Assembly: GCA_903944085.1 (NCBI GenBank)
Contig: CAJAQO010000024.1
Coordinates: 1-35,610 of the forward strand
Reading direction: 5' to 3'
Origin: an uncultured Verrucomicrobia subdivision 3 bacterium
Lineage (GTDB): Bacteria; Verrucomicrobiota; Verrucomicrobiia; Limisphaerales; UBA11358
Length of the DNA stretch: 35,610 bases
Of the stretch, positions 6,325 through 15,948 are shown one piece after another. Below the pieces are notes generated by a model. The model saw nothing but the letters and a program-made list of their open reading frames with translations, ran no database searches and was not told the DNA's origin. Numbering within the stretch: position 1 is the stretch's first letter; each line of letters starts with the position of its first letter. A program made the translations under genes and the position numbers.

Positions 6325-6507
6325 GCTTGATTATCAGGCAAACAACTTTCAGGAATTTGTCCGGTGCGAAAGAATGCTCTATTCAATTCTTCCCACAGTC
6401 ATCGCGTGAAGAGAATCACAGGTTTGAATTTGGCGATGAACGGTGTTACAAACCAATTCGTCAAAACGAGGAATCTGCGAGCCGGAACGCTCTTCGCGCC
6501 GGCCCGT

Positions 6508-7506
6508 TTATTGTGCAGCACGCGCCAACGATTCGCGCGGACCGGCTTTCACATCCAGCCAACGCGATTGCAGCAACACATTGGCGGCGGTAATAAGCGA
6601 GCCGCCCACCAGCAGGCGCAGGGTGAGATGTTCGTCAGGATAGTTCAGGCCGGTCCAGCGCGAGAACCAGCCGGGTAAAAACAATGCGAGGGCGCTGGCA
6701 AACAGCGGTTCGGCGCAGTAAATCAAGCCAGCCTCGGTGGCGGTGACGTGCCGTTGCCAGCGACTCATCATTACAAACGCGCCGAGCGTGCAAAACAACA
6801 CGATAATTGCCATCAGTCCGCACGCCGGCACGGAAGCGTAAGCGCGAAAACAAGCGGCGGCACTTGGCGCGGTGACTGCCACGAGCGGCAGAGTGAGCGC
6901 GGCGGTGGCCAGCAGCATCGCGGCGGTGAAACAAAGCGGCCGGTTCGCCGCGTAGCGCGGATGTTCGAGGCAGAGGATTTGCGCCGCGAACATCACCGAG
7001 GCGGCGAGCGTTTCAATTTCACCACGCCCCAGCTTGAGGGCGAATACGTTCAGTTGCACCAGCACCGCCATGCCGCCGAGCACGAGTGCGCTGCATAAAA
7101 TGATTTTCACCGTCGGCGGACGGCGATGACTCACGGCTACCCACAGCGGAATCAGCACGCAGTATAATTGCGTGAGGAATGCCGAGGTGGAGGCGGAGGT
7201 GTAGGCCAGCCCGTCCATTTGCAGACAAAGCCCCACCGAGGTGAACAGCGCCAGCCACATCCCCTGCTCCATTTCGCGGCGTGAAATGGTTCTGACTTCG
7301 GGAAATGAAATAACCAGCAGCAGCGCGCCGGCGAGCGCGAAACGATACAGCACACTCAAGGAGCTGATGAACCAACTGCCGGCACCGGGCAAGATGGCCA
7401 GCTGCGTCAGCGCCAGCGCTTTCATGGCGGGGAAACTCAATGACCAGAACAGCGTGCAAAGCACGAGGCGTTGAAACGCCTTCCGGCGAAGATGGGCAGA
7501 CGGCAT
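6508..7506 (-). CDS. EamA/DMT-family membrane transporter
   Basis: 332 residues with about nine or ten hydrophobic helices spread over the whole length, in the duplicated pattern of drug/metabolite transporters. The first half contains LCTLFWSLSFPAMKAL and TSASTSAFLTQLYCVLIPLWVA, which match the EamA repeat style; the second has TATEAGLIYCAEPLFASALALFLPG, the conserved end segment of the second repeat. It sits in the inner membrane and probably exports a small metabolite; the substrate cannot be read from sequence. It is the last of a minus-strand series (lolC-lolD, methyltransferase, rhomboid, transporter), 15 bp after the rhomboid gene, so it is likely co-transcribed. Confidence 0.88.
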   Translation of the reverse strand: MPSAHLRRKAFQRLVLCTLFWSLSFPAMKALALTQLAILPGAGSWFISSLSVLYRFALAGALLLVISFPEVRTISRREMEQGMWLALFTSVGLCLQMDGLAYTSASTSAFLTQLYCVLIPLWVAVSHRRPPTVKIILCSALVLGGMAVLVQLNVFALKLGRGEIETLAASVMFAAQILCLEHPRYAANRPLCFTAAMLLATAALTLPLVAVTAPSAAACFRAYASVPACGLMAIIVLFCTLGAFVMMSRWQRHVTATEAGLIYCAEPLFASALALFLPGWFSRWTGLNYPDEHLTLRLLVGGSLITAANVLLQSRWLDVKAGPRESLARAAQ

Positions 7507-13198: not shown

Positions 13199-13376
13199 CA
13201 TCCGCGCCAACCTGACACCAATGGTATGACCCGGCTGGCTTTCGCCCTCGCAGTGCGACCGCAACCGCGTCTTGCGCGACAATTCCAGCAGTTCCGAAAT
13301 CGCCGGGAGCGGCAAAAATACTGTTGACAGTTTGCTTTTCTAATATCATTGTATCCGCATCCGTTGATTTGACGGA

Positions 13377-13490
13377 CTCATGACGAGTGGACGAGGGACT
13401 GGCCCGATGACCCCACGGCAACCGATTGAACTTTGGTTTCAATGACAGGTGCCAATTCCAGCTCAAGCATCATCAGCTTGGGAAAAATGA
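13377..13490 (+). promoter_or_regulatory. SAM riboswitch (SAM-I type aptamer)
   Basis: The conserved core is plain: GAGGGACTGGCCCGATGA, then CGGCAACC, a small P3 hairpin (ATTGAA...TTTCAAT), then GGTGCCAATTCC and a P4 hairpin CTCAAGC/GCTTGGG. P1 is CTCAT (13377-13381) with ATGAG (13486-13490). These match the S-adenosylmethionine SAM-I consensus. It lies in the leader of the threonine-synthase-like gene. The 3' P1 strand with following bases (GAGAAG) can alternatively pair with CTTCTC in the terminator stem, the layout of an OFF switch. Confidence 0.95.
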
Positions 13491-13511
13491 GAAGAGCACA
13501 ACCGTTTTGTC

Positions 13512-13542
13512 GCCCCTTCTCGTCCTGAGTCGGGGCTTTTTT
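13512..13542 (+). terminator. Riboswitch-controlled intrinsic terminator
   Basis: GCCCC (13512-13516) pairs with GGGGC (13532-13536), with inner CTC/GAG pairs, followed by six T (13537-13542). It lies between the SAM aptamer and the ATG at 13579. SAM binding would free its 5' strand and stop transcription. Confidence 0.9.
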
Positions 13543-13578
13543 GTTGCCCAGATCAAATCGGCGGAAACCAAAACGATT

Positions 13579-14835
13579 ATGAGTGAACAACACGGTTTCA
13601 TGAAGGCGCTCAAGTGCCGCGAGTGCGGACGCGAATATCCGCTGGAAGCCACGCACGTCTGCGAATTCGACTTCGGCCCGCTCGAAGTCGCCTATGACTA
13701 CGACCGCATCAAAAAAACGCTGACCAAGGCGGTGATTGAATCGCGCCCCAAAACGATGTGGCGTTACCGTGAGTTGCTGCCCGTCGCCACCGAACCGACC
13801 GTCGGCAAGCAAGTCGGTTTTACGCCGCTCGTCAAAGCCGACCGGCTCGCGAAGGCGCTCGGCATCCGCGAACTTTACGTCAAGAACGACGCCGTGAATT
13901 ATCCCACGCTCTCGTTCAAAGACCGCGTCGTCAGCGTCGCGTTGAGTCGCGCCAAAGAACTTGGGTTTGAAACGGTCGCGTGCGCGTCCACGGGAAATTT
14001 GGCCAATTCCGTCGCCGCCAACGCTGCGAGCGCCGGTCTGAAGAGTTATGTTTTCATTCCGTCCGATTTGGAGCAGGGAAAAATTCTGAACTCGCTCATT
14101 TACGGTGCAAACGTCATTGCCATCAAAGGCCATTACGACGAGGTGAACCGGCTGTGCGCCGAGATCGCCGGCAAATTCGGCTGGGCGTTCGTGAATGTGA
14201 ACATGAGGCCGTATTACGCCGAAGGTTCAAAGAGCATGGCGTATGAAATCGCCGAGCAACTCGGCTGGCGGCTGCCGCAGCACACGATTGTGCCGATGGC
14301 GTCCGGCTCGTTGCTGACGAAGATTCACAAGGGCTACCAGGAATTTGCCAAGCTCGGCCTCGTCGCGAATTCCGAGACGCACATTCACGGCGCGCAGGCC
14401 ACGGGCTGTTCGCCGATTTCCGTTGCGCAAAAAGCCGGGCTCGATTTCTTCAAGCCGGTCAAGCCCGACACGATTGCCAAATCACTCGCCATCGGCACGC
14501 CCGCCGACGGTTTCTATGCGCTCAAAGTGATGCGCGAGACCAACGCCGCGGCTGACGACGTGACCGACGACGAAATCCGCGACGCGATCAAGCTGCTCGC
14601 CGAGACGGAAGGCATTTTTGCCGAGACGGCCGGCGGCGTGACCGTGGGCGTGGCGAAAAAGCTTATTGCTTCCGGCAAGATTCCGAAGGATTCTTCCGCC
14701 GTCATCTGTGTCACCGGCAACGGCCTTAAGACGCTGGATGCTGTCAACGGCTATTGCGGCAAGGCGCGCGAAATCAAGCCGAGCCTGCGCGAGTTCGAGG
14801 CGCTGCTGGCACAGGAAGAAAAAGTGAATGCGTAA
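13579..14835 (+). CDS. thrC: Threonine synthase-like PLP enzyme under SAM control
   Basis: 418 residues, fold-type II PLP enzyme of the threonine synthase family. An N-terminal zinc-ribbon-like segment (CRECGREYPLEATHVC, Cys13/16/28) precedes the catalytic domain. The PLP lysine is Lys114 in LSFKDR; ASTGNLANS (about 136-144) binds the cofactor phosphate. Known family reaction: O-phosphohomoserine to threonine. The frame is open back to 13426, but that part lies inside the riboswitch, so ATG 13579 is the start. The SAM OFF switch upstream and the sulfur-carrier and NIL genes downstream argue that this member may instead help make homocysteine; that is inference. Its TAA overlaps the next ATG (TAATG). 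Confidence 0.88.
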   Translation: MSEQHGFMKALKCRECGREYPLEATHVCEFDFGPLEVAYDYDRIKKTLTKAVIESRPKTMWRYRELLPVATEPTVGKQVGFTPLVKADRLAKALGIRELYVKNDAVNYPTLSFKDRVVSVALSRAKELGFETVACASTGNLANSVAANAASAGLKSYVFIPSDLEQGKILNSLIYGANVIAIKGHYDEVNRLCAEIAGKFGWAFVNVNMRPYYAEGSKSMAYEIAEQLGWRLPQHTIVPMASGSLLTKIHKGYQEFAKLGLVANSETHIHGAQATGCSPISVAQKAGLDFFKPVKPDTIAKSLAIGTPADGFYALKVMRETNAAADDVTDDEIRDAIKLLAETEGIFAETAGGVTVGVAKKLIASGKIPKDSSAVICVTGNGLKTLDAVNGYCGKAREIKPSLREFEALLAQEEKVNA

Positions 14836-15293
14836 TGCTCAATAAATCGAAAATAAAAATTTATGCATCCCGTCTCTTGATAGGTTTCCTTTGTGTCTTC
14901 CCTGTTTATCAGTGGTTTTTCGTGCCATTCACATCAGCGCTCAATCACATGGCTCGTGGACGCGACGCTGAAGAAGCTAATAAATTTTATACTTTCATAA
15001 CTAAGCAAATTAATTTTGAGCAGAAATCTTTGTTGGACTCGAATCGCCCGTCAATTTCTGTTGACCCTAGAAATCACGGTCTTCGATTTGACGTGTATGG
15101 ACTCACAAATTATGACGATAAAAAAAGACTGTTGGCAGCAGCCTATGACTGGCAATCTGCCAATAGTCATGTTGAAGATTTTCAAATTCGGTTCTTCTCG
15201 CAGGAGCAGCCAAGAGGTTATTATGGCCAGCATTCTGAATCTTTAATAGACGAGGTTCATTTTTCATTTACGAAGACAAACGCGCAAAATTAA
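14835..15293 (+). CDS. AT-rich orphan membrane-anchored protein inside the thrC operon
   Basis: 152 residues, family not recognised. One hydrophobic segment near the N-terminus (IYASRLLIGFLCVFPVYQWF, about residues 7-26) suggests a membrane anchor or uncleaved signal. The rest is polar, with many Asn, Phe, Tyr and Lys residues. Base composition is visibly lower in GC than its neighbours, and codon choice (AAT, TTT, ATA, AAA) differs from them. The ATG shares a base with the thrC stop, and the sulfur-carrier gene starts four bases after its own stop, so it is fitted into the operon without spare sequence. This looks like a later acquisition that became translationally coupled. Confidence 0.7.
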   Translation: MLNKSKIKIYASRLLIGFLCVFPVYQWFFVPFTSALNHMARGRDAEEANKFYTFITKQINFEQKSLLDSNRPSISVDPRNHGLRFDVYGLTNYDDKKRLLAAAYDWQSANSHVEDFQIRFFSQEQPRGYYGQHSESLIDEVHFSFTKTNAQN

Positions 15294-15297
15294 ATTT

Positions 15298-15573
15298 ATG
15301 TCAAAGAAAGTCCGCATCCCCACGCCGCTCCGCAAGTTGACCAACAACGAGGAGCTGGTTGAAATCAATGCCACCAACATCGGCGAAGCTATCGTCGAAT
15401 TGCAGACGCGCTTCCCCGGCATCCAGGAACGCCTCGTGGATGACAAGGGCGAGGTGCGCCGCTTCGTCAATGTTTATGTCAACGAGGAGGACATTCGCTT
15501 CCTCAAAAACCGCGAGACGCCGCTCAAAGACGGCGACGAAATCAGCATCATCCCCGCCATCGCCGGCGGCTAG
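15298..15573 (+). CDS. MoaD/ThiS-family sulfur carrier protein
   Basis: 91 residues with a ubiquitin-like beta-grasp pattern. The centre has RRFVNVYVNEEDIRFL and LKDGDEISIIPAIAGG; the terminal GlyGly is the diagnostic feature, being adenylated and converted to a thiocarboxylate that donates sulfur. The middle region matches the CysO/MoaD type more than ThiS. Known relatives feed sulfur to cysteine synthase (CysO-CysM) or to homocysteine formation (HcyS in Wolinella). With a PLP enzyme two genes upstream under SAM control, a methionine-pathway donor is the best guess. The activating E1-like enzyme and a JAMM-type protease are not in the window. Confidence 0.92.
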   Translation: MSKKVRIPTPLRKLTNNEELVEINATNIGEAIVELQTRFPGIQERLVDDKGEVRRFVNVYVNEEDIRFLKNRETPLKDGDEISIIPAIAGG

Positions 15574-15575
15574 GC

Positions 15576-15610
15576 AAATTGCGAATTTCAAATTCCGAAT
15601 TGCGAATTAA
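15576..15610. repeat. Heptamer tandem array (GAATTNC-type, five units)
   Basis: AAATTGC-GAATTTC-AAATTCC-GAATTGC-GAATTAA follow one another at 7-bp spacing. The array starts two bases after the sulfur-carrier stop and ends four bases before the NIL-gene ATG, in the middle of the riboswitch operon. Confidence 0.8.
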
Positions 15611-15614
15611 AACT

Positions 15615-15899
15615 ATGGCCACCAAGAAAAAACTTCCGGCAACGAAATCCACTTCGCCCACGCAGCAGCGGCTTTGGCTGATGTATCCGCCCAAGCTGAT
15701 CAAGAAGCCGTTCATCTGGGAGGTCGCCAAGAAATTCAAGGTCGTGACGAACATCCGCCAAGCCAGCGTGACCGATGAAATCGGCATCGTCTGCCTGGAA
15801 CTTGATGGTCCGCGCGACGAGGTGAAAGCCGCCATCAAATGGCTGGAGAAACAAGGCGTGAACGTGGAACCGGTGGAGATCGGCGTGATTGCGGGTTAG
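15615..15899 (+). CDS. NIL-domain protein
   Basis: 94 residues: a short basic Lys/Thr-rich start, then a single NIL domain (RLWLMYPPKLIKKPFIWEV to VEIGVIAG), the small ferredoxin-fold module also found at the C-terminus of the methionine transporter ATPase MetN and in NIL-ferredoxin fusions linked to homocysteine synthesis in anaerobes. In MetN it senses methionine. Here it stands alone at the end of a SAM-regulated operon, so a role as a methionine sensor or as a sulfur-transfer accessory is plausible. The ATG at 15615 follows the heptamer array; the frame extends to 15579 but that part is repeat translation. Confidence 0.85.
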   Translation: MATKKKLPATKSTSPTQQRLWLMYPPKLIKKPFIWEVAKKFKVVTNIRQASVTDEIGIVCLELDGPRDEVKAAIKWLEKQGVNVEPVEIGVIAG

Positions 15900-15915: not shown

Positions 15916-15948
15916 AAAAACGGCGCGATGAAACATCGCGCCGTTTTT
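15916..15948. terminator. Bidirectional intrinsic terminator
   Basis: AAAAACGGCGCGATG (15916-15930), loop AAA, then CATCGCGCCGTTTTT (15934-15948): a perfect 15-bp stem with T-runs on both strands. It lies between the convergent NIL gene and atpC, ending 15 bp from the atpC stop, so it can terminate both the sulfur operon and the ATP synthase operon. Confidence 0.95.

Follow-up and report, generated by a model that had tools for sequence, protein, structure and literature searches.

A SAM-I-led operon of a threonine-synthase-like enzyme, a sulfur carrier and a NIL protein in a verrucomicrobial genome: a probable MetM/MetO-type route to homocysteine

The stretch analyzed here (the window) is the 35,610-nucleotide contig CAJAQO010000024.1 (C24) of a 5.8-Mb draft genome of an uncultured Verrucomicrobia subdivision 3 bacterium, 95.9% complete with 4.7% contamination. 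It carries, in order, a SAM-I (S-adenosylmethionine, SAM) leader, a gene for a threonine synthase (ThrC)-like enzyme dependent on pyridoxal phosphate (PLP), an open reading frame (ORF) of 152 residues, a gene for a sulfur carrier ending in GlyGly (GG) and a gene for a NIL-domain protein. Judged from sequence, this is very probably a SAM-repressed metM-metO-NIL operon, in which the ThrC-like MetM would make homocysteine from O-phosphohomoserine with carrier-borne sulfur and the NIL protein would serve as a third component. What the analysis establishes is the set of parts, their likely orthology to Streptomyces MetM/MetO, the conservation of gene order, riboswitch and neighboring genes, and a MetM distribution that complements that of the canonical enzymes. 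The locus comprises the following features:

13375..13493, plus strand: SAM-I (S-box) aptamer, full-length RF00162 match, 70.7 bits (gathering cut-off, GA, 44.4)
13489..13494, plus strand: 3′ strand of P1, the antiterminator half GAGAAG, complementary to CTTCTC at 13516-13521
13512..13536, plus strand: intrinsic terminator hairpin, then six T
13579..14835, plus strand: metM-like gene for a threonine-synthase-fold PLP enzyme, the proposed O-phosphohomoserine-dependent homocysteine synthase
14835..15293, plus strand: 152-residue ORF between metM and metO, overlapping the metM stop codon (TAATG)
15298..15573, plus strand: metO-like gene for a ubiquitin-like sulfur carrier ending in GlyGly, with a Pfam ThiS match of 65.4 bits and the C-terminus AIAGG
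15615..15899, plus strand: NIL-domain protein, the proposed third component, 48.3 bits (cut-off 24)
15916..15948, listed on the minus strand: 15-pair hairpin with a T run, between the NIL gene and convergent ATP-synthase-like ORFs, the probable end of the operon

These matches bear out the first-pass annotation, made from the letters alone, in its SAM-I aptamer, GlyGly-ending MoaD/ThiS-like protein and NIL protein. The mutually exclusive terminator and antiterminator that it described are also found: CTTCTC lies inside the terminator hairpin and can pair with the P1 3′ strand. Folding of the leader yields -53.5 kcal/mol when unconstrained (without P1), -47.6 with P1 plus terminator and -50.4 with the terminator alone. 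A terminator is present in all 21 scanned relatives from the host's own taxonomic order (Limisphaerales), and P1/terminator pairing in 19 of them (exceptions L030 and L050), with compensating changes preserving it as GAGACA with TGTCTC in L045 and GAGACG with CGTCTC in L047. The scan of the relatives picked a shorter stem without pairing for the window itself, for which the dedicated fold shows the pairing. The window leader alone folds no better than shuffled sequences (z -0.66), so support for the riboswitch comes from the family match and from conservation. The terminator logic predicts an OFF switch for SAM. Among seven leaders of more distant Verrucomicrobiota, the scan returned one hairpin, of weak quality (L054), and these leaders may work by other means.

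The aptamer is the sole SAM-I match in its genome, 150 of 471 first-look candidates having been scored, and scans of the hom-thrC-lysC contig and of the MetX/MetY contig (both below), the latter over its first 20 kb, returned no further riboswitch. Upstream of the orthologous gene, SAM-I occurs in 19 of the 20 close loci given, as well as in L031 and L044, and is missing in L027. The gene order noted in the first-pass annotation likewise recurs. Enzyme matches at E 1e-20 were obtained in 53 of 59 genomes searched, some to ordinary ThrC only; among the best 29 loci besides the window, taken with 1.5-kb flanks, a carrier lies downstream in 24 and a NIL protein also, in this order, in 21, some stretches ending too early to judge either. 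At ordinary ThrC loci of lower identity (L063-L080), a carrier or NIL gene lies within ~1.5 kb in 0 of 18, and SAM-I was found at 0 of the 6 scanned.

The enzyme belongs to the threonine synthase family, as annotated at first pass, matching TIGR00260 with 286.5 bits (cut-off 167.1). Since the MetM of Nonomuraea also exceeds this cut-off (270.1), the model cannot separate MetM from ThrC. A citing paper, PMC12172450, describes MetM (Hasebe et al. 2024, AEM 90:e01247-24) as a Streptomyces homocysteine synthase acting on O-phosphohomoserine, with cyanobacterial homologs; in Streptomyces albulus, according to the same paper, a SAM riboswitch lies upstream of metM, whose partner metO belongs to the sulfur carrier family. 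Our literature search found no further paper on MetM. The window enzyme is 54-58% identical to the enzymes of 13 Streptomyces loci (17 in the sample), and the window carrier 46-49% identical to their carriers. In a quick tree of 103 rows, one branch (Shimodaira-Hasegawa-like approximate likelihood-ratio test, SH-aLRT, 99) parts 84 MetM rows, including Streptomyces and the window, from 19 ThrC rows, and the MetM rows cluster largely by phylum; the tree drew on 22 of the 58 actinobacterial rows of full length, on Nonomuraea and on few close relatives. Nine diagnostic columns, among them L141, E165, S217, T350 and G353, part 120 MetM rows from 19 ThrC rows, the latter containing, in both comparisons, a single aberrant row on a long branch (L090_2831). 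At each of the nine, the window enzyme has the letter of MetM in place of the one conserved in ThrC. The window thus shares with Streptomyces MetM/MetO the ThrC-like enzyme, the carrier partner and the upstream SAM riboswitch, and the tree and the identity to other Streptomyces copies make the two likely orthologs; it differs in its phylum, its NIL gene, the ORF between metM and metO, and the presence of MetX/MetY in the genome. Putative zinc-ribbon-like N-terminal ligands (residues 13, 16, 28 and 31) read CCCC in most MetM rows and CCCD in 22 verrucomicrobial rows, including the window, three from Planctomycetota and one unnamed.

Seven PALP-family matches were found in the genome: two cysteine synthases, two TrpB-type proteins, a D-cysteine desulfhydrase/D-cysteate lyase-like protein, the window enzyme and a further threonine synthase, of a different type. 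The last (237.6 bits) lies between hom (homoserine dehydrogenase) and lysC (aspartate kinase), and the paralog count therefore excludes the window enzyme as the genome's only ThrC. Together with the likely MetM/MetO orthology, this second ThrC lends support to the suggestion of the first-pass annotation that the window enzyme may form homocysteine from O-phosphohomoserine. It counts against the alternative of a bifunctional threonine synthase/threonine deaminase, through which the SAM switch would steer the homoserine branch point by way of threonine formation. Consistent with that alternative are the TIGR00260 match, a predicted structure (predicted local distance difference test, pLDDT, 91) closest to solved threonine synthases, and the Microcystis homolog. 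As reported in PMC12172450, Microcystis ThrC is 51.6% identical to MetM, has next to it a gene for a carrier (47.25% similarity to metO) and is stated to have no SAM riboswitch; it showed threonine synthase and threonine deaminase activity, making threonine and 2-ketobutyrate, the assay gave only an unidentified peak near methionine, and a full MetM role in the cell was doubted. We nevertheless regard a bifunctional ThrC as very improbable for the window: a separate ThrC is encoded in the same genome, the letters conserved in ThrC are replaced, and neither the adjoining carrier, nor the carrier-charging genes elsewhere, nor the complementarity with MetB/C/Y/Z has a place in threonine synthesis.

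Within the phylum, an even sample of 288 genomes contains 12, the window's own included, in which the enzyme match reaches 62% identity or more; of the further matches listed at E 1e-60, none exceeds 38%. The other 11 MetM-bearing genomes have an adjoining carrier in 11 cases, a NIL gene in seven and SAM-I in eight. Beyond the phylum, contigs were scanned as DNA for the motif N-x-R-P-[YF]-[YF]-A-E-G-S-K, which gave no match at ordinary ThrC loci and had been widened after an initial version overlooked the MetM locus L055. The scan returned at least 120 stretches, a sample neither complete nor unbiased, with no cyanobacterial loci among the matches listed, and the counts given below over testable loci and over the 120 refer to these listed matches. 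The enzyme is encoded, complete or in part, in every one of the 120, and at least three (L097, L179 and L192) appear to repeat contigs of the other locus sets. By record titles, they derive from Actinomycetota (69), Chloroflexota (18), Verrucomicrobiota (9, one of Kiritimatiellae), Nitrospirota (6), Acidobacteriota (4), Planctomycetota (3) and deltaproteobacterial groups (3), with one each from Elusimicrobiota, Dormibacterota, Omnitrophota, a zetaproteobacterium and an archaeal metagenome-assembled genome titled Geoglobus, and three from unnamed bacteria.

After omission of loci ending too near the gene, which leaves 104 of the 120 testable for the carrier, 102 for SAM-I and 95 for NIL, a carrier adjoins metM in 83 of 104 and SAM-I lies upstream in 81 of 102. 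Of the 18 sequences behind the SAM-I model, five came from these loci and were found by Rfam independently (10 of 18 loci had SAM-I); the 81 include one weak match (L146, 26.1 bits) and exclude a partial one (L097, 21.4 bits). By group, SAM-I is present in Actinomycetota 60/60, Verrucomicrobiota 7/8, Planctomycetota 3/3, Acidobacteriota 3/4, Chloroflexota 4/13 and Nitrospirota 0/4. Four Nitrospirota loci (L143, L158, L178 and L206) have a second, lower-scoring ThrC-family gene after MetM-carrier-NIL, and both users of O-phosphohomoserine may there share one operon.

The best solved relatives of the window carrier are CysO-type proteins (entry 3dwg among them). In Mycobacterium tuberculosis, CysO and the PLP enzyme CysM make cysteine, with CysO as a GG carrier. 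The window likewise pairs a fold-type II PLP enzyme with such a GG carrier, the enzyme grouping with threonine synthases instead of cysteine synthases. In the HcyS pathway of Wolinella succinogenes, a carrier thiocarboxylate is the sulfur source for homocysteine, as proposed here, and carriers of other MetM lineages bear tails behind the GG as in that pathway; the PLP enzyme there is of the MetY kind, that of the window of the ThrC kind. In the 120 loci, 87 carrier ORFs score 85 bits or more; GG is the exact C-terminus of 55, and many others are tailed. The HcyS protein-thiocarboxylate pathway to methionine is cited in PMC5764234.

Three ThiS-family carriers are encoded in the genome, namely the window carrier, a ThiS and, next to moaA, a MoaD-like protein, along with two ThiF-family proteins, one MoeB/MoeZ-like (cut by the contig end) and one TcdA. 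A ThiF-family, carrier-charging gene lies at most 3 kb downstream of metM in 14 of 79 testable loci and is absent from this interval in 45/45 actinobacterial and 5/5 verrucomicrobial ones. In L176 (Syntrophaceae), a ThiF-family gene with a rhodanese domain precedes genes for a JAMM-type protease and a second PLP enzyme. A fusion ORF of carrier and ThiF lies at 1412-2560 of L199 (Dehalococcoidia), a locus that also has genes for a JAMM protein and a PLP enzyme, and L209 encodes a carrier fused to a carboxymuconolactone-decarboxylase-type domain (6463-7503).

The carrier neighborhood also bears on a second alternative, an O-phosphohomoserine sulfhydrylase using free sulfide, with the carrier auxiliary or serving another pathway. 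This would fit the 17 of 60 testable actinobacterial loci that have no adjoining carrier. We hold it to be highly unlikely, as a carrier adjoins metM across many lineages, the window carrier is closest to CysO-type proteins, and the genome has other carriers in the MoaD-like protein and ThiS. Actinobacterial MetM lacking an adjoining carrier possibly draws on a carrier encoded elsewhere or on free sulfide. Such genes with SAM-I upstream are found in L108, L119, L126, L153, L168, L170, L182, L203 and L212, their hosts including Micromonosporaceae, Blastococcus and Lentzea.

The window NIL protein is the only NIL match in the genome. The C-terminal domain of MetN, a subunit of the methionine importer, binds methionine. 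At E 0.01, the NIL profile matches six solved sequences, every one of them MetN or a MetN C-terminal domain, and at E 0.001 the NIL model (pLDDT 87) has nine fold matches, all to MetN or ABC-transporter C-terminal domains, making the MetN C-terminal (C2/NIL) domain the best match in sequence and fold. Given this resemblance to a regulatory domain, we propose that the NIL protein may act as a methionine sensor. It differs from MetN in having no ATPase part and in an arginine, R48, invariant in 30 NIL sequences, with the nearly invariant N46 two residues before it.

A NIL gene adjoins metM in 28 of the 95 testable loci, in eight named groups: Nitrospirota 6/6, Chloroflexota 12/15 and Verrucomicrobiota 3/6 among them, as against Actinomycetota 0/52, Planctomycetota 0/3 and Acidobacteriota 0/3. 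Many of these NIL-adjoining loci have no SAM-I upstream. In four loci (L140:3672-4196, L176:4949-5470, L190:3-443 and L193:2661-3290), carrier and NIL form one ORF with NIL straight behind the GG; all three of the fusion loci with downstream sequence have a JAMM-like gene at a distance of 2.1-2.5 kb behind metM, as detected with a JAMM model that took L176 and L199 as seeds and matches in five of the 120 loci. Otherwise compatible with the MetM/MetO reading, the NIL protein could be a mere passenger sharing the promoter, as its absence beside metM in Actinomycetota, Planctomycetota and Acidobacteriota would allow. This is rather unlikely in view of its adjacency in Nitrospirota, Chloroflexota and six more named groups, many of the loci without SAM-I, its fusion to the carrier, and the position of the genome's sole NIL match at this locus. 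A more specific role is conceivable, and we advance it tentatively: NIL as a third functional MetM/MetO component, a free-standing, methionine-sensing relative of the MetN domain that would gate sulfur delivery by MetO, in some lineages as a MetO-GlyGly-NIL fusion that would need a JAMM cut before charging, coupling methionine control to carrier activation.

Our literature search, outside which Hasebe et al. 2024 lay, found no paper linking NIL with threonine synthase or MetM; the papers that it listed concern coenzyme M and the DUF39 route (PMC5764234). As described in PMC5764234, the DUF39 plus NIL/ferredoxin route likewise ties a NIL domain to homocysteine synthesis; it bypasses homoserine, and the window protein matched NIL only, with no ferredoxin domain. 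The NIL protein and the carrier-NIL fusions are the new part of the finding, the core MetM/MetO idea having been published already.

Several observations weigh against homocysteine synthesis through MetM as the role of this operon. Besides the TIGR00260 match, the Microcystis results and the carrier-less actinobacterial loci, the 0/52 of Actinomycetota implies that the core reaction does not depend on NIL. The genome also encodes a MetX-MetW fusion next to MetY (L020:8012-11293, contig C96). Same-genus copies are 84-88% identical for MetY in L085-L088, and for MetX-MetW 84-89% in L086-L088 and 42% in L085; contamination as the source of this contig was ruled out on these 84-89% identical copies, which make it unlikely, and MetM is thus not the genome's only route. 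In addition, no GHMP homoserine kinase was found in the genome (the best match is IspE), although two enzymes, MetM and the second ThrC, would need O-phosphohomoserine. L218, a TIGR02535 match, was considered as a homoserine kinase and rejected as an apgM-type phosphoglycerate mutase.

A canonical pathway elsewhere in the genome, which the first-pass annotation had set against its own inference, is therefore represented by MetX-MetW and MetY, while most MetM-bearing genomes have no MetB/C/Y/Z-family match. At E 1e-60, such matches occur in 2 of the 12 MetM-bearing genomes of the 288-genome sample (the status of G179 taken from the chosen-set search) and in 257 of the other 276, giving a Fisher p of 1.3e-9, a test that ignores kinship, six of the 12 belonging to one family and two to another. 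In a chosen set of 39 genomes, the family is found in 6 of 34 MetM-bearing and 3 of 5 MetM-lacking genomes. MetM is accordingly distributed in a manner complementary to the canonical MetB/C/Y/Z enzymes. Because 28 of 34 and 10 of 12 MetM-bearing genomes lack that family, we do not take the canonical route in this genome as a refutation. Within a search that covered these enzyme kinds, MetM appears to be the sole candidate in most MetM-bearing genomes tested and one of two in the window's own. A MetY-family match is present in 4 of 13 same-genus genomes tested. Two genomes of 0.9 Mb (G115 and G094, loci L056 and L057) keep MetM and the carrier and have no MetB/C/Y/Z-family match.

We infer the substrates, the thiocarboxylation, SAM binding and the function of NIL, and propose the following sequence of events for the metM-metO-NIL operon. 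With SAM plentiful, SAM would bind the aptamer, P1 would form and the terminator would stop transcription; with SAM scarce, the P1 3′ strand would open the terminator. The MetO C-terminus would be charged as a thiocarboxylate, in which form MetO reportedly donates its sulfur in the 2024 work of Hasebe and colleagues, by an enzyme of MoeB/MoeZ type whose gene lies outside the operon, at another place in the genome. MetM would take the sulfur from this thiocarboxylate to convert O-phosphohomoserine to homocysteine, not threonine, and the NIL protein, which most likely senses methionine (or homocysteine), would tune MetM or MetO.

The 152-residue ORF between metM and metO, absent from the first-pass annotation, has a G+C content of 39%, against 57% for the window, and gave no Pfam or NCBIfam match at E 0.1. 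A resembling ORF occurs in one of 29 close loci (L051, 33%).

Proteins of this kind pass the threonine synthase model and are likely annotated as thrC, from which MetM can be told apart by the adjoining carrier, the SAM-I leader and the diagnostic residues. Their recognition points to a homocysteine route in genomes without the usual enzymes: among the listed matches, a carrier-dependent, often SAM-controlled putative homocysteine synthase occurs in a dozen groups, including one archaeal metagenome-assembled genome. The NIL protein and the carrier-NIL fusions provide a directly testable new part of this pathway.

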